Positions 26,286 through 33,012 of a stretch of 39,144 nucleotides of DNA are shown in pieces. Within the stretch, counting starts at the first letter, position 1. Every line of letters begins with the position of its first letter. The position numbers were made by a program, and so were the translations under genes. The DNA is taken from contig JADGAY010000014.1 of NCBI GenBank assembly GCA_015231775.1, positions 1 to 39,144 on the forward strand, in the 5' to 3' direction. The notes under the pieces are model-generated. The model did not search any database. It was not told the DNA's origin and saw only the letters and a program-made list of their open reading frames with translations. This DNA is from Magnetococcales bacterium (GTDB lineage: Bacteria; Pseudomonadota; Magnetococcia; Magnetococcales; Magnetaquicoccaceae).

Positions 26286-26348
26286 CGTTCATACCTTGAG
26301 CGATGAACGCTTTGGAAAGTGTCGCGCGTCCCCGTCGATACGTTCATC
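26286..26348 (+). repeat. Three copies of CGTTCAT in alternating orientation upstream of the CBS gene
   Basis: CGTTCAT occurs at 26286-26292 and 26341-26347. Its reverse complement ATGAACG is at 26303-26309, between them. The second and third copies extend to an 8-bp inverted pair (GATGAACG 26302-26309, CGTTCATC 26341-26348). The set lies in the 275-bp gene-free gap 26090-26364, 17-79 bases before the CBS gene start, where an operator would be expected. No regulator is assigned. The rest of the gap shows nothing recognisable. Confidence 0.35.
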
Positions 26349-26364
26349 AGGATTCCCTGGTTCG

Positions 26365-27720
26365 ATGGAACTGTTCATTTTGCTGTCGATGGTTCTCCTC
26401 AACGGCGTGTTTTCACTGGCTGAAATGGCCGTGATCTCCTCCCGCAAGGTCCGGTTGCAACACCTGGCCGAGGCGGGTTCCAGCGGGGCCCGCATCGCCC
26501 TGCTCCTCTCCGCCGATCCCAGTCGTTTTCTGGCCACCATTCAGGTGGGGATCACCACCATCGGCATTCTGAGTGGTGCCTATGGCGAGGCGGTATTCCT
26601 CAATAATCTGATCCCGCTGATCGAGCCATTGCCCCTGATCGGTCCCCACGCCACCGAGGCGGGACTGGTGATCATCGTCGTGGGGATCACCTTCGTCTCC
26701 CTGATCCTGGGAGAGTTGCTGCCCAAGCGGCTGGCCCAGCACCATCCGGAATCCCTGGCCATCCTCGTGGCCAAACCCATGTTCTGGTTATCCCGGCTGG
26801 CTTCGCCGTTCATTCGTCTGCTCACCGTCACGACGGAAGGTCTGCTGCGACTGTTGAAACTCCACCACCACGACGACCCCCCGGTGACCGAGGAGGAGAT
26901 CCAGGTGTTGATGCGGCAGGGGGCCGAAGCCGGGGTTTTCGAACAGCACGAGCAGTTGTTGGTCAAGCGGGTGTTGCAAATGGACTCGCGGCGTATTTCG
27001 GATATCATGACTCCGCGCATGGAGATCGATCTCCTGAATCTGCAGGATGGTCTGGAAGAGAATCTGCGCCGCATCGCCGAGAGTCGCCACAACCGCTTTC
27101 CGGTCTGCATGGGGGGGTTGGACGAGGTGGTGGGGGTTTTGGACAGCACCAGTCTGCTTAAAAGAACCCTCATGAATCAACCTATTGATCTGGCTGAGTT
27201 GTTGAAGCCGCCCGTGTTCGTGCCCGCCACCATCGGCATCACCCATCTGTTGGAGTATTTTCGTCGCAATCGGATGGGCATGGTCTTGGTGGTGGACGAA
27301 TTCGGTGGCGTGGCCGGCGTGGTGACGCTGACCGATCTGCTGGTGGAGATGGTGGGTGAATTGGAGGACAGCGCTGCCGCCGAGGATCAATCGGTGGTGA
27401 TGCGGGAGGATGGCTCCATGCTGTTGGATGGCATGCTGGATCTGGAGCGTCTGCGTGAGTTGACCGGCATCTCGAGCACCTTTCCGTTTGAGGACGAGGG
27501 GGGCTATCACACTCTGGCAGGCCTGGCGATGACCATGCTCGAACGGATTCCGCGCGTGGGGGACTGTTTCACCTGGGAGGGATTTCGTTTCGAGGTGGTG
27601 GACATGGATCGCAACCGGGTGGACCGGCTCAGTGTCCAGCACCTCACGAGCCTGTCGCCCTCCACGCCCCATGCCGGAACGGCCTTCCCGGACCCGGAGA
27701 ACTTGCTGCCATCCGTCTGA
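26365..27720 (+). CDS. CorC/TlyC-type protein: DUF21 membrane domain, CBS pair, CorC_HlyC domain
   Basis: A 451-residue protein from ATG 26365; a TTG at 26296 would add 23 residues of non-hydrophobic sequence and is less likely. Residues 1-160 form the DUF21 (CNNM) membrane domain: MELFILLSMVLLNGVFSLAEMAVISSRK, with helices at about 1-20, 58-80 and 96-120 and the LGELLPKRLA signature. Residues about 205-330 form the CBS pair, introduced by RRISDIMTPRMEID and ending with VVDEFGGVAGVVTLTDLLVE. Residues about 340-425 form the CorC_HlyC domain. Relatives act in Mg2+/Co2+ efflux or homeostasis; the hemolysin label used for some is historical. It is convergent with the histidine kinase gene, ends 89 bases apart. 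Confidence 0.92.
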   Translation: MELFILLSMVLLNGVFSLAEMAVISSRKVRLQHLAEAGSSGARIALLLSADPSRFLATIQVGITTIGILSGAYGEAVFLNNLIPLIEPLPLIGPHATEAGLVIIVVGITFVSLILGELLPKRLAQHHPESLAILVAKPMFWLSRLASPFIRLLTVTTEGLLRLLKLHHHDDPPVTEEEIQVLMRQGAEAGVFEQHEQLLVKRVLQMDSRRISDIMTPRMEIDLLNLQDGLEENLRRIAESRHNRFPVCMGGLDEVVGVLDSTSLLKRTLMNQPIDLAELLKPPVFVPATIGITHLLEYFRRNRMGMVLVVDEFGGVAGVVTLTDLLVEMVGELEDSAAAEDQSVVMREDGSMLLDGMLDLERLRELTGISSTFPFEDEGGYHTLAGLAMTMLERIPRVGDCFTWEGFRFEVVDMDRNRVDRLSVQHLTSLSPSTPHAGTAFPDPENLLPSV

Positions 27721-27809: not shown

Positions 27810-29219
27810 TTATCTGGATGCCCGTTGTTCGTGTCCGTTCGTGACGACCCTCGGAAAATTCAGGACACCCGGTTTGACCGGCAATGCGATTTCGACCCGA
27901 AAGCCCCCCAATTCCGAGGCGTGCGGAAATCTCATGGTTCCGGCATAATGTGTCACTGTTTCGCGTACCAGGGAGAGTCCAAGCCCGTGACCGGGGCGTG
28001 ATTCATCCAGACGCACCCCCCGCACCGCCAGATGATCGGTTTCCAGAGGTTCCACGCCTGGCCCGTCGTCCTCCACCACAAAATAGACCTCCTCAGACCG
28101 CACTTCGATCACGACCCGGATCCTGCTGGAGGCCCATTTGAAGGCGTTGTCGAGCAGATTCCCGAACAACTCCATCATGTCCTCCTGATCAAACGGGAGC
28201 GTGATTCCGCTTGGAATCGCCATCTCCACGTCGATTTTTTTCTGGAAGTTGATGTTCTTCAAGGTGCGCGTCAAGATGCCGAGTGATTGTTCCGGATAAA
28301 AGAACATGCCATCCAGCGGAAAATCGGTCAGACGCGCGCGCCGCAGTTCCCGATCAATCAACTCGGATAGATGATTCAGTCTCTCCTCGATCTCCGAGCG
28401 CAGTTTTTCATCGCCGCCCAAAACAGGATGATGAACGATCTGGAATAGCGTTGCCAAGGGACTCTTCATGGCATGGGCAAGGTTGGTGATGGTGGTACGG
28501 GAACGGAGCAGACGCTGTTCCATCCGCGACAGCAGGTGATTGATCTGGCCAACGACCTTTTTCATTTCGACCGGAACATCTTCGCTTAATTTGCCGATCT
28601 GTCCCATTTCAAGATGCATCACGTCCTGATGAATCCTGGCAATGGGAGACATGGCTCGATAGACCGCCACGACGTGAATGATGGTCAAGAGCAGCAAAAA
28701 TACAACTGAAATAATTGAATATAACCATAAAAATTGCTCCAGATCCTCCTCGATTGGGGTAAGATCCTCGGCCACGGCCACGGTGAGCTTGCGTTCCCGC
28801 AGTGGGATGGTGCGTACCAGGGTGAGCAGGTTCTCGTCCTTTGGACCCTTGGCGAAGAAGCGGATCTGGTCGCCCACTGGCACGGCGGGGATGTCGAGGG
28901 TGAACTGGTTCAGGGAGCGGGACCGGAGAATTTGGGACTCTTCTCCATCCTGCAGGATGATCTGATAGTAATAGCCGGAAAACGAGAAGTGAAACAGTGC
29001 ATCGACGTGTTTGCCATCCAGGCTGATGAGATCCTGATCATCCAGGGCCAGTTCGGCGAGGATGCTAGCGATCTCCAGTTCCATGCGGTCTTCAAGGTAA
29101 TTGGCGGTCAACTCCTGCAAGGCGGTGCTCACCACCCACCACAACAGGAAGAACATCGCGATCAGACTCACCACCAATGTGACGAGCAACCGGCTCTTGA
29201 TCGAGCGTCTCCAGTTCAT
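27810..29219 (-). CDS. Sensor histidine kinase, PhoQ/QseC-like layout
   Basis: A 469-residue kinase. Transmembrane helices lie at about 11-31 and 165-187, with a periplasmic sensor of about 130 residues between them. A HAMP-like linker with the phosphorylation helix follows, with His249 in NLAHAMKSPLATL. The ATPase domain has the N-box NLLDNAFKWA, DDGPGV and GHGLGLSLV. The HisKA motif is the variant seen in PhoQ-type kinases (HxLKTPLA-like). Its start codon is 3 bases after the stop of the OmpR gene, so the pair is one operon. The periplasmic part has acidic patches, but no ligand can be named. It ends 89 bases from the convergent CBS gene. Confidence 0.94.
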   Translation of the reverse strand: MNWRRSIKSRLLVTLVVSLIAMFFLLWWVVSTALQELTANYLEDRMELEIASILAELALDDQDLISLDGKHVDALFHFSFSGYYYQIILQDGEESQILRSRSLNQFTLDIPAVPVGDQIRFFAKGPKDENLLTLVRTIPLRERKLTVAVAEDLTPIEEDLEQFLWLYSIISVVFLLLLTIIHVVAVYRAMSPIARIHQDVMHLEMGQIGKLSEDVPVEMKKVVGQINHLLSRMEQRLLRSRTTITNLAHAMKSPLATLFQIVHHPVLGGDEKLRSEIEERLNHLSELIDRELRRARLTDFPLDGMFFYPEQSLGILTRTLKNINFQKKIDVEMAIPSGITLPFDQEDMMELFGNLLDNAFKWASSRIRVVIEVRSEEVYFVVEDDGPGVEPLETDHLAVRGVRLDESRPGHGLGLSLVRETVTHYAGTMRFPHASELGGFRVEIALPVKPGVLNFPRVVTNGHEQRASR

Positions 29220-29222
29220 TCG

Positions 29223-29888
29223 TCAGGTTCCCGGCATGAACTGATAGCCCTGCCAACGCAGGGTACGGATGATATCCCGGCCCAGTTTTTTGCGCAGGTG
29301 GTTGATATAGACCTCGATGACGTTGTGATCCATGATCTTGTCGAAGTCGTACAGGACATCGATCAGCGCATCCTTGGAGTGGATACGGCCTGGGGAGAGC
29401 ATGAAGACCCGCAGTAGTCGGAACTCCATGGAGGTCAACTGCACCAGTTCACCATCTGGTTTGATCACGGCTTGCCGTTCCTCTTCTAGGGTGTAGCCCC
29501 CGACGTTCAACTGTCCCTGGAAACGGGCGTGGCAGCGCATGATCAAGGCGCGGAGCCTGGCCAGGAGTTCCTCGACATGAAACGGCTTTCCCAGATAATC
29601 GTCCGCTCCAGCCTCTATCCCGACCACCCGCTCCTGCCAGGAATTGCGGGCGGTGAGCACGATCACCGGTACCGGATTGCGTCCCCGCCGCCAGTTTTTT
29701 AGGATCGTCAATCCAGGGTGATCTGGCAGGCCGAGATCAAGAATCACCGCATGATAAGCCAACTGATTGGCCATCGCCTCGCCATCCAGGCCATGCTGGG
29801 TGATGTCCACCGAAAATCCGGCTGATTCACATTTGCGTTTCAGATGTTGGGCCAGAATCGAGTCGTCTTCGATGATCAGGATGCGCAC
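29223..29888 (-). CDS. OmpR/PhoP-family response regulator
   Basis: A 221-residue regulator partnered with the kinase downstream. The receiver (1-115) has IIEDD at the N-terminus, acceptor Asp51 in AVILDLGLPDHPG, switch Thr in VLTARN and Lys in YLGKPFH. The winged helix (about 130-218) has LTSMEFRLLRVFMLSPGRIHSKDALID, HNVIEVYINHLRKKLG and the wing IRTLRWQGYQF. Its length and motifs match PhoP/QseB-type proteins. No direct-repeat operator was found in the upstream gap. The 375-bp region 29889-30263 separates it from the divergent SWIM-like gene. Confidence 0.94.
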   Translation of the reverse strand: MRILIIEDDSILAQHLKRKCESAGFSVDITQHGLDGEAMANQLAYHAVILDLGLPDHPGLTILKNWRRGRNPVPVIVLTARNSWQERVVGIEAGADDYLGKPFHVEELLARLRALIMRCHARFQGQLNVGGYTLEEERQAVIKPDGELVQLTSMEFRLLRVFMLSPGRIHSKDALIDVLYDFDKIMDHNVIEVYINHLRKKLGRDIIRTLRWQGYQFMPGT

Positions 29889-30149
29889 GTCAGATTTTAT
29901 CTCCGGGAAAGGGGGGAGATTCTCTCGTCCATTGTATCTGAATTCCGCCCAGTGACAAGCGTCGCGGCTTGCAGGTCGCTTGGTCGTTGCCTGGCCGTTG
30001 ATGTGTTGGCATGCCCAGCTTTTTGCATCATCGGGAGAAGGTCATCCCTCGACCGCGGAGCGTTTCTCGGGTGTTCCTGGGGCCGTGTTTTCCGAAGCGT
30101 GCGCCCATGGGAGTAGTTCAGATTCAATTCTATCGCTCGAAGCTGAAAC

Positions 30150-30213
30150 CAAACTGAAGATCGTTCACAATTCTGGAGGAAAAATGACAAGGTTTCAATT
30201 TCAATTCAGTTTG
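30150..30213 (+). promoter_or_regulatory. Structured leader with a strong ribosome site upstream of the SWIM-like gene
   Basis: In the 375-bp gap 29889-30263, CAAACTGAA (30150-30158) and TTCAGTTTG (30205-30213) form a perfect 9-bp inverted repeat. The overlapping pair GAAACC (30145-30150) and GGTTTC (30191-30196) could compete with it. Their loop contains GGAGGA (30175-30180) and ATG 30184, which opens a 53-codon frame running out of phase through the start of the SWIM-like gene. This may be a leader peptide or a structure that gates translation. I see no promoter I trust, and nothing else recognisable in the gap. Confidence 0.3.
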
Positions 30214-30263
30214 CTGTGTCAGGATGTATCTTCATCCGATTCTCCAACTCAGCGAGAACAACC

Positions 30264-30593
30264 ATGCGTGAACTGTATTTTCAGGTTGCCGACAGTCACC
30301 ACAAGCCGTTCGAAGTGGTCATCCGGAAAAACGGTGACAATCTGACCGCCCTGTGCTCTTGCCCGGAAGGGGAGAATGGGATTTGTGTGCACAGACTTAA
30401 CATTCTCCGTGGTTCGGTCGAGGGGATCGTGAACGGTCGCGACGATGAGGTGCGGCAAGTGGTCTCTTGGGTCGAGGGTACCGATGTGGGGCGAGCCTTG
30501 CGCGCGGTGTTGCTCGCCAGCAATCAACTGCAAAACGCGCGGGATGATTTCGTCACGGCCAAGGAACGTCTGGTTCGAGCCATGCTTGATTGA
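30264..30593 (+). CDS. Small SWIM-like zinc-motif protein
   Basis: A 109-residue protein from ATG 30264, an alternative to GTG 30216. It contains Cys31, Cys33, Cys41 and His43 in LCSCPEGENGICVHRL, that is CxCx7CxH, the pattern of the SWIM zinc finger, a nucleic-acid or protein-binding module. The first 28 residues are predicted beta strands (ELYFQVAD, PFEVVIRKNGDNLTAL), and residues 60-109 are helical (DDEVRQVVSWVEGTDVGRALRAVLL, then a charged coil ending AKERLVRAMLD). The same arrangement, motif and C-terminal pattern recur at residues 598-690 of the SulP protein encoded 279 bases downstream, so the two share a homologous domain. The ribosome site (GCGAGA) is weak. The function is unknown; a regulatory or sensory partner of the transporter is inferred. 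Confidence 0.75.
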   Translation: MRELYFQVADSHHKPFEVVIRKNGDNLTALCSCPEGENGICVHRLNILRGSVEGIVNGRDDEVRQVVSWVEGTDVGRALRAVLLASNQLQNARDDFVTAKERLVRAMLD

Positions 30594-30624
30594 TCGGGAT
30601 GACGTGAGATGCCCTAATCTCTTC

Positions 30625-30652
30625 CAGTTGAACCCTGCAGGGCGTTCAACTG
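30625..30652 (+). repeat. Hairpin downstream of the SWIM-like gene
   Basis: CAGTTGAA (30625-30632) and TTCAACTG (30645-30652) form a perfect 8-bp stem. It is topped by CCC/GGG (30633-30642) with a TGCA loop and a two-base bulge. It lies 31 bases after the stop of the SWIM-like gene. No T tract follows directly, so it is only a weak terminator candidate. The remaining gap to 30871 holds a 5-bp hairpin with T5 (30799-30816) that could weakly terminate. Confidence 0.4.
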
Positions 30653-30871
30653 AAAACAGTTTTGCCTTCTGGGATGTGTTCGGGCCTGGGTGGCGCGCGC
30701 TGAAAAGCCGCTATCCGGTTGGATTTGTCTGGCCCGTACCCATCCTCGAGTGCCCCTGTCGATCCCCTTCTCATCGTTCCACACTGGTCGCCAGATACCC
30801 GGATTTTCCGGTTTTTCCGGGGCAGCATTCCGTCCCAACCCTGTCAGACATTGGTATACTAAGGAATCCGC

Positions 30872-32944
30872 ATGACCAAGAAGCAATCCATATCCCGGCT
30901 CAATCCTGAGTCGTGGCTGCCCATTCTGGCGACTCTCAGGGGTTACCGGATCGGCTTTCTGTCAGGAGATTTGGTGGCGGGTTTGAGTGCATGCGTGGTC
31001 ATGATCCCTTCGGTGATCGCCTATGCCGAACTGGTGCACATGCCTCCCATCACTGGCCTTTATGCGGCCTTGGCCGCATCTATTGGTTTCGCCCTGTTCG
31101 CTTCGTCGCGTCAGGTGATCGCCGGACCGGATGCCGCCATCGGCCTGTTGGCGGGAACGGCCATCCTCCCTCTGGCCGGGGATGATCCGGGCCGCATCCC
31201 GGTGTTGGCCGCCACCCTGGCACTGTTGTCCGGGTTGATCCTGCTGTTGGCGGCCAGGTTGCGGGTGGGAACCATCGCCGATTTTCTCTCCAGGCCGGTG
31301 CTGATCGGCTATCTGAACGGTGCCGCCTTGATTCTGGTTTCCACCCAGTTGGGTAAGCTGTTCGCCATCAAGACCACGGGAGAGGAGTTTTTTCCCCTGC
31401 TCTGGCAGATCGTGGAAAACCTGTCCAACACCCATCGTCCCACCTTTCTCGTGGGGATCTCCCTGATTCTGTTGATGGTGATTCTCGGACGGGTGGCTCC
31501 GCGCGTTCCGGGAGCCCTGGTGATATCGGCGCTCGGTATCCTGGGTACGCTCCACTTTGGATTCAGGGAGTCGGGTCTGGCCTTGGTGGGGGATGTGCCA
31601 TCCGGAACCCCAATGGCAGTTCTCCCCCTGTTCCATTGGTCGGACATTCCTGCCCTGGCTCCCGCAGCCATGGCCATCGCCTTTCTCGCCTTCTCCGACG
31701 GGATCTTGCTAGCCCAGGCCTTCGCGGAAAAAAATCGTTACGAAATCAATCCAAACCGCGAACTGACCGCGCTTGGCATGGCCAACATCGGCGCTGGATT
31801 GTTCCAGGGATTTCCGGTTTCCGCCAGTTCGTCCCGCACCGTCATCGTGGATGCCACCGGTGGCAAGACCCAGGTGGCCCAGCTGGTGGCGGCGGTCGGA
31901 CTGCTGTTCTTTTTGTTCTTCTTGACCGGCTTGATCTCCCTGTTGCCCAAGGTGGCCCTGGCGGCCATTCTCATCGTCACGGCTATGGGCATGCTGGAGA
32001 TCAAGCCGATGATCGAACTCTATCGCATGGATCGATTCGAGTTCTTCATGGCTTCGATGGTGATTCTCGCCATCCTGGTGGCCGGGGTGGTTCCCGGCAT
32101 TCTGTTGGGACTGCTCATCTCCCTGATTGGCATGATCGTGGAGATCTCCCGACCCGGAGATGCCGTGCTGCGGCGTCAGGGGCCTGGCAAAAAGTTTCAT
32201 GATTTTGGTGCCAGGGAGCACAACGGCGAGAGTCTGCCCGGTCTGATCATCTACCGGCTCTATGCCCCGTTGATTTTCGCCAATGCACGTCATGTCATGA
32301 CCCGCCTGCGTCATCTGGTCACTTCGGCCCCCACGCCAGTGAAATGGCTGGTGATCGATGCCCAGTCGATCACCGACATGGACATCACCGCCGCTCAGCG
32401 GTTCGCCGAGCTTTACCGGGAGTTCCGCGAGGGGGGCATCTCCGTCAAGGTGGCGGATGCGCCCCGTCCCTTTTTCCTGCAACTGGAAAAGGTGGGGATG
32501 GCCGAAACCATGGATGATTTGCAATTCTACGTTTCCGTGAAAAAGGCCGTGGAGGACTTCGAAGCCATGACCAATCCGGTGCGCGAGGTTCGTTTGGTGG
32601 TGCGGGACAATATCGAGGACTCCGGCGAGCCGGATGAGGCATACGAATCCCATGAGTTGCTTTTTCGGCGTATTGGTTCCAACATGTCGGTGAGCTGTAC
32701 CTGCTCGCTGGAGGATCACTCGGTGTTTTGTACGCATCGCATGGCCGTTCTCATGGGCGACATGGAGAAGATCACCCTCCTGGACGGTACGGTGGAGGAG
32801 GTGGAGGAGATTCGCGAGATGATGAAAGGCACCGACGTGGAGGTGGCCTTGAAGAGCATGATCGCCGCGGATCGGGCCTTGCAGACCGCCAGCCGGGAGC
32901 TCTTTCAGGCCAAGGAAGAGTTAGGGAAGGCCATGAACGATTGA
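30872..32944 (+). CDS. SulP-family anion transporter with STAS and a C-terminal SWIM-like domain
   Basis: A 690-residue protein with AAGGA 6 bases before ATG 30872. Residues about 28-425 form the SulP membrane core: GDLVAGLSACVVMIPSVIAYAELVHMPPITGLYAAL, the SSRQVIAGPDAAIGLL signature, and FQGFPVSASSSRTVIVDATGGKTQ. Residues about 440-565 form a STAS domain (LIIYRLYAPLIFANA, WLVIDAQSITDMDITAA). Known members move sulfate, bicarbonate or C4-dicarboxylates by Na+ symport or exchange; the substrate here is not determined. Beyond the usual end, residues 598-690 add a SWIM-like motif, Cys609-x-Cys611-x8-Cys620-x-His622, and a helical tail (MKGTDVEVALK, AKEELGKAMND). This tail matches the 109-residue protein encoded upstream. 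I know of no described SulP protein with this appendage. It probably faces the cytoplasm, next to STAS. Confidence 0.92.
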   Translation: MTKKQSISRLNPESWLPILATLRGYRIGFLSGDLVAGLSACVVMIPSVIAYAELVHMPPITGLYAALAASIGFALFASSRQVIAGPDAAIGLLAGTAILPLAGDDPGRIPVLAATLALLSGLILLLAARLRVGTIADFLSRPVLIGYLNGAALILVSTQLGKLFAIKTTGEEFFPLLWQIVENLSNTHRPTFLVGISLILLMVILGRVAPRVPGALVISALGILGTLHFGFRESGLALVGDVPSGTPMAVLPLFHWSDIPALAPAAMAIAFLAFSDGILLAQAFAEKNRYEINPNRELTALGMANIGAGLFQGFPVSASSSRTVIVDATGGKTQVAQLVAAVGLLFFLFFLTGLISLLPKVALAAILIVTAMGMLEIKPMIELYRMDRFEFFMASMVILAILVAGVVPGILLGLLISLIGMIVEISRPGDAVLRRQGPGKKFHDFGAREHNGESLPGLIIYRLYAPLIFANARHVMTRLRHLVTSAPTPVKWLVIDAQSITDMDITAAQRFAELYREFREGGISVKVADAPRPFFLQLEKVGMAETMDDLQFYVSVKKAVEDFEAMTNPVREVRLVVRDNIEDSGEPDEAYESHELLFRRIGSNMSVSCTCSLEDHSVFCTHRMAVLMGDMEKITLLDGTVEEVEEIREMMKGTDVEVALKSMIAADRALQTASRELFQAKEELGKAMND

Positions 32945-33012
32945 AACAGGCGGGGACTGCGCTGCCTGGAACGCGGCTGTGGCTTGGCAGGGAGGATGCG
33001 AATTTTCAAAGA

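Follow-up and report, generated by a model that had tools for sequence, protein, structure and literature searches.

A SWIM-type domain found as a free protein and as the C-terminal tail of a SulP transporter in the Magnetococcales

Organization of the locus

The window, the 39,144-nucleotide stretch of Magnetococcales DNA analyzed here, carries on its plus strand two neighboring genes whose products contain a SWIM-type zinc-finger motif. The first gene (30264..30593) encodes a free protein of 109 aa with three strands, a CxCx7CxH motif (C31-x-C33-x7-C41-x-H43; ligand-block codons 30354..30392), helices and a 35-residue C-terminal helix. Its structural model is a confident prediction (pLDDT 92.8), in which elements E16-23, E26-31 and H42-48 form a strand-strand-helix arrangement around the site. 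The second gene (30872..32944) encodes a SulP/SLC26-type transporter of 690 aa. This protein consists of a Sulfate_transp membrane domain (residues 30-395, 30959..32056; 5.6e-87, 292.4 bits against a Pfam cut-off of 23.2), a STAS domain C-terminal to it (residues 455-559, 32234..32548; 6.7e-10, 39.1 bits against 22.6) and, after STAS, an acidic 93-residue SWIM tail (residues 598-690, 32663..32941) with the motif C609-x-C611-x8-C620-x-H622 (ligand-block codons 32696..32737). The tail model has its elements in the same order as the free protein, with pLDDT values of 72-88 around the site, and a long C-terminal helix is predicted in both models. The coordinates, lengths and Cys/His residues given for both proteins in the first-pass annotation are all correct.

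The transporter resembles known SulP/SLC26 proteins (PF00916 plus PF01740) in that its membrane and STAS domains both exceed the curated cut-offs, and it differs from them in the additional SWIM domain that follows STAS. Other cytosolic domains, carbonic anhydrase for example, are also known as fusion partners of SulP proteins. The NCBIfam model TIGR00815 (sulP) is narrowly missed (362.4 bits against a cut-off of 380.45) with the whole model covered, and scores against the NCBIfam DauA and BicA models are far under their cut-offs. Of the proteins with a solved structure, plant sulfate transporter 4.1 and prestin match it best in sequence.

An OmpR-type response regulator gene (29223..29888, minus strand) and the free SWIM gene point away from each other, and the gene for the regulator's partner histidine kinase (27810..29219) lies on the same minus strand. 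Beyond the kinase gene is a plus-strand gene for a CNNM/CorC transporter with CNNM, CBS and CorC_HlyC domains (26296..27720). A profile check of the locus returned not a single match to TerB, TerC or TerD in the window.

Homology of the free and fused domains

The first-pass annotation had proposed that the two domains are related, a view to be given up if they lacked a significant match or if the four Cys/His positions varied among orthologues. BLASTP aligns the free protein and the tail over 103 columns with 34% identity (E 9e-20), and the aligned span includes the GTDV..AL and AKE.L..AM blocks, as the described shared layout had it. The four ligands are invariant in 19/19 aligned relatives, comprising 14 SulP tails and five free proteins, all retrieved through sequence searches rather than through the motif. 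With a significant match and invariant ligands, the proposed relationship therefore withstands both challenges. All 24 free copies examined, as well as two exonuclease fusions, carry these ligands too.

Assignment to the SWIM family varies with the sequence used as query. Against the Pfam SWIM cut-off of 19.6 bits, the two window copies (17.0 and 13 bits) and an exonuclease fusion (15.2 bits) fall below, two homologues score above (27.9 and 26.2 bits), and a further free copy in the same genome (L002) has no SWIM match whatever in the Pfam scan. In common with the SWIM zinc finger (PF04434), the domain has the CxCxnCxH pattern, two strands followed by a helix in the free-protein model, and these two homologues over the cut-off; it differs in the conserved N-terminal strand and the long C-terminal helix that flank the site. 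Judged from their sequences, the free protein and the SulP tail are one homologous SWIM-type domain that exists in free and fused forms.

Distribution and origin of the fusion

The SulP-SWIM fusion is found in 17 of the 48 genomes of the window's order and nowhere else among the data searched. The 18 fused tails are spread across five families of the order. In each of the 17 genomes that have a close SulP orthologue (E <= 1e-240), the tail is on the same contig. The SulPs ranking next within the order are 27-31% identical, and the order's other SulPs have no SWIM match on their contigs. In the tree all 18 tails form one clade (100/99) that is separate from every free copy. On these comparisons, the SWIM tail marks one SulP subfamily.

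The tail had been explained as a product of duplication and fusion. The fusion is upheld, and the single tail clade argues against its being a duplicate of the neighboring free gene: local duplication of the free gene into a SulP tail is rejected by the tree, even though the branching of the window's free protein, near the base of the clade for the order, is not settled there. A search for fusions with adjacent free copies, also called for earlier, recovered the fusions; a free SWIM gene adjoins SulP in 0/16 of the other fusion genomes within the flanks at hand, some of which are short (213 bp upstream in G004). A pair of free and fused genes as a general rule is unsupported beyond the window's genome, where the second SulP-SWIM gene comes after a free SWIM gene and an intervening CNNM gene.

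Co-occurrence by genome is high: in the set of 48, the fusion is present in 17, a strong free copy in 16 and both together in 12 (Fisher p 9e-5); for the 27 better genomes, the counts are eight with both, two with the fusion only, two with the free copy only and 15 with neither (p 7e-4). This co-occurrence is weak support because the genomes are related. No free copy was found in 5/17 fusion genomes, two of which have a completeness of 90% or more and a contamination of 5% or less; the fusion therefore does not require a free partner. PF18509 (MCR), which we take to be magnetochrome, was matched in 48/48 genomes of the order and in 0/14 controls, and the order is therefore taken as magnetotactic.

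Across relatives, identity to the window's SulP-SWIM is 39-78% in the tail and 67-91% in the membrane part. The corresponding dN/dS values, which are rough since dS exceeds 1 in several comparisons, are 0.12-0.38 for the tail (five pairs) and 0.055-0.095 for the membrane part. Faster evolution than in the remaining protein could mark the tail as a functionless passenger of an old gene fusion, but its retention in 18/18 members and five families, with intact ligands and dN/dS at those values, makes this reading extremely unlikely.

Genetic context

The gene most often seen close to a free SWIM gene is that for CNNM rather than for SulP. Eleven of the 12 short-type free SWIM genes sit 20-115 bp upstream of a CNNM/CorC gene, a count in which related genomes are non-independent, as they are in the other context counts. 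Among longer or divergent free copies, a CNNM neighbor was seen in 0/11 when the flanks were read. Genes for CNNM or Ter proteins lie near 6/18 SulP-SWIM loci, the window included, and several of the other loci are cut by contig ends. The window's genome has two CNNM matches, both within about 3.2 kb of SWIM genes.

Two genomes (G011 and G012) share the gene string CNNM-TerD-TerD-TerB-TerC-SulP-SWIM. A third (G018) has SulP-SWIM followed by TerD, which is alone of the Ter genes there, and in a fourth (G015) SulP-SWIM is directly followed by a contig-cut CNNM gene whose product is 76% identical to that of the window. In three other genomes, SulP-SWIM or SWIM-CNNM loci have a linked homologue of the window's response regulator (67, 70 and 51% identity), and homologues of its histidine kinase also occur in three genomes (62, 61 and 38%). 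Those with 61-70% identity adjoin the two CNNM-Ter-SulP-SWIM strings. Such contexts suggest that the domain common to the SulP tail and the CNNM-linked free proteins may be a zinc-dependent part shared by ion transport systems.

The window's locus is like Ter/CNNM metal-stress clusters in that SulP-SWIM of two relatives comes after a string ending in TerC and in that short-type free SWIM genes precede CNNM, and it differs in being without TerB, TerC and TerD. To our knowledge, SulP and SWIM proteins are not standard members of these clusters.

A somewhat unlikely possibility is that the tail itself is a zinc or thiol sensor, with metal loss or oxidation opening or closing the transporter and no partner involved. 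Its four invariant ligands would suit this role, as would its position after STAS, given that the C-terminus of human SLC26A9 is reported to block the entry path in simulations (PMC11214054). The two relatives with SulP-SWIM after TerC fit as well, the ter operon of K. pneumoniae being reported as strongly zinc-inducible and TerC as conferring zinc resistance (PMC12054061). However, the same ligands recur in 24 free copies and two exonuclease fusions that have no transporter, for which a structural site is at least as good an explanation.

A purely structural zinc site, in a tail that helps SulP dimers to assemble or remain stable and senses nothing, would be consistent with the long C-terminal helix of both models and with the tail's tolerance of sequence change relative to the membrane part. 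This account is decidedly unlikely, and it needs neither the linkage of free copies to CNNM nor the presence of Ter, CNNM and two-component genes by some of the fused genes.

Candidate regulatory sites

Upstream of the free SWIM gene is a candidate response-regulator box, a direct repeat CTGAA-N6-CTGAA with an 11-bp period (30141..30158, plus strand; motif defined post hoc), with a looser copy at 30194-30209 on the minus strand. Among the loci scanned, the box AGYTGAANNNAARCTGAA occurs in three places only, all upstream of SWIM/CNNM/Ter-type units, and the motif was derived from the same three sites that it describes. Looser copies also lie upstream of CNNM genes in G012, and 3/9 of the loose matches listed lie elsewhere. 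Even in its loose form the box was not found at the second locus of the window's genome (L074), in G018 (L087) and in G001 (L078).

Between the free SWIM gene and SulP is a perfect 9-bp inverted repeat, CAGTTGAAC-N10-GTTCAACTG (30625..30652), which is the sole such site genome-wide with up to three mismatches allowed. A terminator-like site in the same interval (30799..30811, plus strand), a consensus match with a 5-bp stem and a T run, speaks for probably separate transcripts of the two genes; terminator-like sites number 13 against 3.5 expected in the scan of 29880-33000, which found no promoter-like sites on the plus strand. The predicted RNA fold of this intergenic region is mildly stable (z -1.6).

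Net charge and nucleic-acid binding

The SulP tails have a mean net charge of -9.9 and a pI of 4.7, with 17/18 at -7 or lower and one at -1. Group means for free and exonuclease-fused copies lie between +0.75 and +3, including +0.9 for homologues outside the order (n=9) and +3 for exonuclease fusions (n=2); the window's own free SWIM protein is at -2. Since the tail is strongly acidic, nucleic-acid binding by it appears unlikely, net charge being an indirect test, and the nucleic-acid-linked role envisaged in the first-pass annotation is disfavored.

Outside the order, the SWIM domain often accompanies DNA-repair genes. It is fused there to a DnaQ-like exonuclease, stands in line with an NAD-dependent DNA ligase at three zetaproteobacterial loci and, in one further genome, lies in an exonuclease-SWIM-BRCT frame (identified by eye) after a ligase-like frame. 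These associations are what could recommend a tail that binds nucleic acid and either anchors DNA or RNA to the membrane or makes transport respond to DNA damage, but the contrast between acidic tails and neutral-to-basic free and exonuclease-fused groups, indirect as net charge is, leaves that account very improbable.

Proposed role and relation to known systems

The reading tentatively preferred, with somewhat less than an even chance of being right, is that the SWIM tail and the free protein are a zinc-stabilized module, for docking or regulation, through which anion transport is tied to the homeostasis of cations and metals. It draws on the homology, the ligand conservation, the single tail clade, the context that recurs in part of the loci, the similar direct repeat upstream of several units and the acidity of the tails. 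A zinc finger that merely stabilizes the tail would look identical.

In this proposed module, the free SWIM/SulP-SWIM pair would be part of membrane ion homeostasis in magnetotactic cocci. The SWIM domain would be a small protein-interaction or regulatory unit, presumably stabilized by bound zinc, that is used in two forms: free in the cytosol, as a partner whose gene accompanies those of CNNM/CorC cation transporters, and covalently attached, as the tail of one SulP anion-transporter subfamily. Placed after STAS at the cytosolic face, the tail may dock on a partner or be gated by it. The partner might be the free SWIM protein, a CNNM or Ter component, or a second SWIM domain contacted through the long C-terminal helix. 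The first-pass annotation likewise envisaged that the free protein docks to the tail or competes with it, with zinc- or redox-linked control, and such interactions may occur. Anion movement could thereby be matched to divalent-cation efflux or metal stress, and the linked OmpR-type two-component system may switch the genes on together. The zinc-inducible ter operon and the zinc resistance given by TerC (PMC12054061) bear on this reading too, and CorC proteins are reported to guard against excess Mg (PMC12421838).

A more specific and rather unlikely version holds that free SWIM proteins on CNNM exporters pair with SulP tails via their helices. Anion and divalent-cation flux would then be joined within a single complex, turned on by the linked two-component system, and magnetotactic cocci would have put a DNA-repair zinc finger to new use as a connector of transporters.

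A partial parallel is the DauA-DctA-DcuS system of E. coli, in which DauA, a SulP protein, is reported to make physical contact with both another transporter and a two-component sensor complex (PMC5703999). The DauA-DctA contact is placed in the transmembrane domains, whereas a zinc-finger tail is the feature of the window's protein.

No report of a SWIM-SulP fusion was found in openly licensed literature. Descriptions of SWIM domains concern proteins of chromatin, recombination and ubiquitin-related processes, and none is known to us for ion transporters. If the proposed role is correct, ion transporters have recruited, for regulation or docking, a zinc finger that elsewhere often stands beside DNA-repair enzymes. 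The finding would also provide a bacterial handle on control from the cytosolic end in the SulP/SLC26 family, which has several human disease members, and would predict that an anion carrier is physically linked to CNNM cation transporters and Ter proteins in bacteria dealing with much metal.

Further database searches

Fold comparison against the PDB gave no match at E <= 1e-3. The free SWIM protein had no match in the phages searched and one match, from Burkholderia, in the plasmids searched. PADLOC returned nothing for the window's free SWIM protein, weaker matches for other SWIM homologues and neighbors, and, for a zetaproteobacterial SWIM homologue, a match to the candidate family PDC-S62 at 24.2 bits.

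A SWIM domain in two proteins

The window encodes a free protein of 109 residues (30264-30593, forward strand) and a 690-residue SulP transporter (30872-32944, forward strand) in which a Pfam domain scan finds a complete Sulfate_transp domain plus a STAS domain. The first-pass annotation had described in both a CxCx7-8CxH ligand motif, located in the transporter within a tail after STAS (residues 598-690), and this description matches the sequence exactly. The proposed homology of free protein and tail is borne out by alignment (E 9e-20, 34% identity), and the four Cys/His positions are conserved as expected, with CxC and CxH unchanged in all 19 relatives aligned. The motif also occurs in each of the 24 free or free-type copies examined, in both exonuclease fusions examined and in four SulP tails outside the 19-row alignment; these four tails had been delimited by means of the motif itself. 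Judged by its ligands and homology, the common domain is a SWIM zinc finger. Against the Pfam SWIM cut-off of 19.6 bits the window copies score 17.0 and 13, and zetaproteobacterial and Burkholderia homologues score 27.9 and 26.2; the same domain scan gives no SWIM match for the second free copy of the window's genome. The AlphaFold model of the free protein (pLDDT 92.8) has three strands, the ligand loop, helices and a 35-residue C-terminal helix; that of the tail (pLDDT 81.6, low-confidence at its start) has a similar order of elements. A search of solved structures returned no fold match to the domain at E <= 1e-3.

Distribution and origin of the fusion

Profile searches covered overlapping sets of 48, 398, 300, 78 and 99 of 97,973 genomes; many are drafts, and those that are related do not count as independent. 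The suggested genome search for SulP-SWIM fusions found the gene in 17 of the 48 genomes of the window's order. The same 17 hold a close orthologue of the window SulP (E <= 1e-240), in each case with a SWIM match on its contig; the next-closest SulPs that the order yields at E <= 1e-60 share 27-31% identity with it, and their contigs carry no SWIM match. A sample of 398 genomes over the phylum, order included, with at most 11 candidates scored in most genomes, gave no SulP-length SWIM match outside the order, where the nearest SulPs are 34-36% identical (299 genomes, E <= 1e-90). Searches of an open-licence literature library turned up no earlier report of the fusion. PF18509 matches occur in 48/48 genomes of the order versus 0/14 controls, and the window's organism is therefore inferred to be a magnetotactic coccus belonging to the Magnetococcales. 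In genome G002, the SulP-SWIM gene (L086, contig C123) has an in-frame TAA, due either to a sequencing error or to gene decay.

A tree of 44 SWIM domains places the 18 tails in a single group (support 100/99) apart from all free copies, so the fusion most likely arose once. The earlier reading took the tail for a duplication and fusion; this tree rules out the window's neighbouring free gene as its source. Fusion members are spread over five families, and the gene may have been transferred within the order. Purifying selection acts on the tail, with weaker constraint than on the membrane part.

Gene neighbourhoods

All 23 strong free copies of the order (E < 1e-18) were examined, 12 of them short-type (109-110 residues) and 11 longer or divergent. 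A CNNM/CorC cation transporter gene lies 20-115 bp downstream on the same strand in 11 of the 23, all short-type; the only short-type copy to depart from this is the window's own, which has a CNNM gene about 2.5 kb upstream. Within the flanks read, no CNNM neighbour accompanies any of the longer or divergent copies. Both CNNM matches of the window's genome are close to SWIM genes, as are 14 of 23 (within about 5 kb) across seven genomes picked partly because they hold SWIM-CNNM loci.

The genome that holds the window is 89% complete and carries two free SWIM copies and two SulP-SWIM genes. The second SulP-SWIM gene, preceded by free SWIM and CNNM genes, is split over two contigs; their ends share 101 bp with a single mismatch. 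Gene order is CNNM-TerD-TerD-TerB-TerC-SulP-SWIM in genomes G011 and G012, SulP-SWIM then TerD in G018, and SulP-SWIM then CNNM in G015. CNNM or Ter genes are thus nearby in 6 of 18 SulP-SWIM loci, window included; the remainder show none in the flanks read, several of which reach contig borders. Homologues of the window's histidine kinase and response regulator (27810-29888) are encoded divergently from the gene strings of G011 and G012 (61-70%); a free-SWIM-CNNM-CNNM-regulator-kinase cluster of G020 includes more distant ones (38%, 51%).

Genome G014 (L066, L141-L144) has five free SWIM copies, one lengthened in its C-terminal part (L066), and no SulP fusion; no CNNM neighbour was seen, the L142 contig ending 257 bp downstream. 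Directly 3' of the window's free SWIM gene lies an inverted repeat (30625-30652) with perfect 9-bp arms around a 10-base spacer; the genome has no second site of this kind.

Probable function

The neighbouring genes point towards a role in ion and metal homeostasis. CorC proteins guard Salmonella against excess Mg (PMC12421838), and the ter operon of K. pneumoniae is zinc-inducible, its TerC conferring zinc resistance (PMC12054061). A precedent for a SulP protein tied to a partner transporter and a two-component sensor is E. coli DauA, which contacts both another transporter and a sensor complex (PMC5703999). The C-terminus of SLC26A9 blocks the ion path in simulations (PMC11214054). Taken together, these points lead us to favour a putative zinc-stabilised docking or regulatory module; direct zinc or thiol sensing is the main rival explanation.

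A candidate regulator box

The candidate box AGYTGAANNNAARCTGAA (window 30141-30158) lies upstream of the free SWIM gene and also of the G020 cluster and the G011 gene string; copies of the window aside, it is confined to these three sites among 147 loci. Their agreement is no test, since the pattern was written from them. The box has two CTGAA-like half-sites 11 bp apart, the spacing expected of OmpR/PhoB-type regulator sites, with which it would fit. A looser form was scanned for at nine loci; among the nine matches listed, six are upstream of such genes or gene strings and three are elsewhere. Two such upstream matches are in G012, which was not used for writing the pattern. The looser form occurs three times in the window versus 0.26 expected, and has no match at the second locus of the window's genome or at the loci of G018 and G001.

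The domain outside the order

Free copies are rare outside the order. They occur in 3 of 78 genomes of the zetaproteobacterial order of G063 and in 2 of 300 of the order to which G174 belongs, one being G174 and the other showing a weak match within a 235-residue frame; in the family of G160 the domain occurs in 6 of 99, three being exonuclease fusions. A scan of named genomes with narrow patterns, returning six loci, gave single free-SWIM loci in Verrucomicrobia, Gallionella, Polynucleobacter and Denitromonas, and one Burkholderia plasmid has a 359-residue version. A reverse-transcriptase-like frame (YLDD, by eye; L137:282-1019, reverse strand) lies near a free copy in the G160 family.

Exonuclease fusions occur in a few of these genomes, as DnaQ-like proteins with a C-terminal SWIM domain (L072:6605-7543, by Pfam and NCBIfam; L073:5988-6893 and L138:847-2031, by eye). 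L138 has the order exonuclease, SWIM, BRCT-like, preceded by a ligase-like frame. In three zetaproteobacterial genomes a free SWIM gene is in line with an NAD-dependent DNA ligase gene (L068:8392-10515, by Pfam; L069:7754-10093 and L070:8626-9114, by BLAST clustering; all reverse strand), and in L070 a RecQ helicase also adjoins it. Other homologues neighbour unnamed proteins. The exonuclease fusions and ligase company suggest that the domain may have had an older role in DNA repair. Mean net charge is -9.9 over the 18 tails, of which 17 are at -7 or below and one is at -1. It is +0.75 over the order's 12 short free copies, among them that of the window at -2, and +2 over three others; nine homologues outside the order average +0.9 and two exonuclease fusions +3. 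The acidity of the tails argues for loss of the repair role on fusion to SulP.

Two zetaproteobacterial genomes and a verrucomicrobial one encode, next to free SWIM, an unnamed protein of about 245 residues (F.WAVP.AFSDA...; L068:7664-8392, L070:7874-8626, L097:1035-1787); the two members scanned match no Pfam family up to E 1. Another, of 175-190 residues (L099:6336-6905, L100:5462-5983, L094:8001-9077), is a neighbour of SWIM in Polynucleobacter and Denitromonas; in Burkholderia it seems, by eye, to form the C-terminal part of the SWIM protein.
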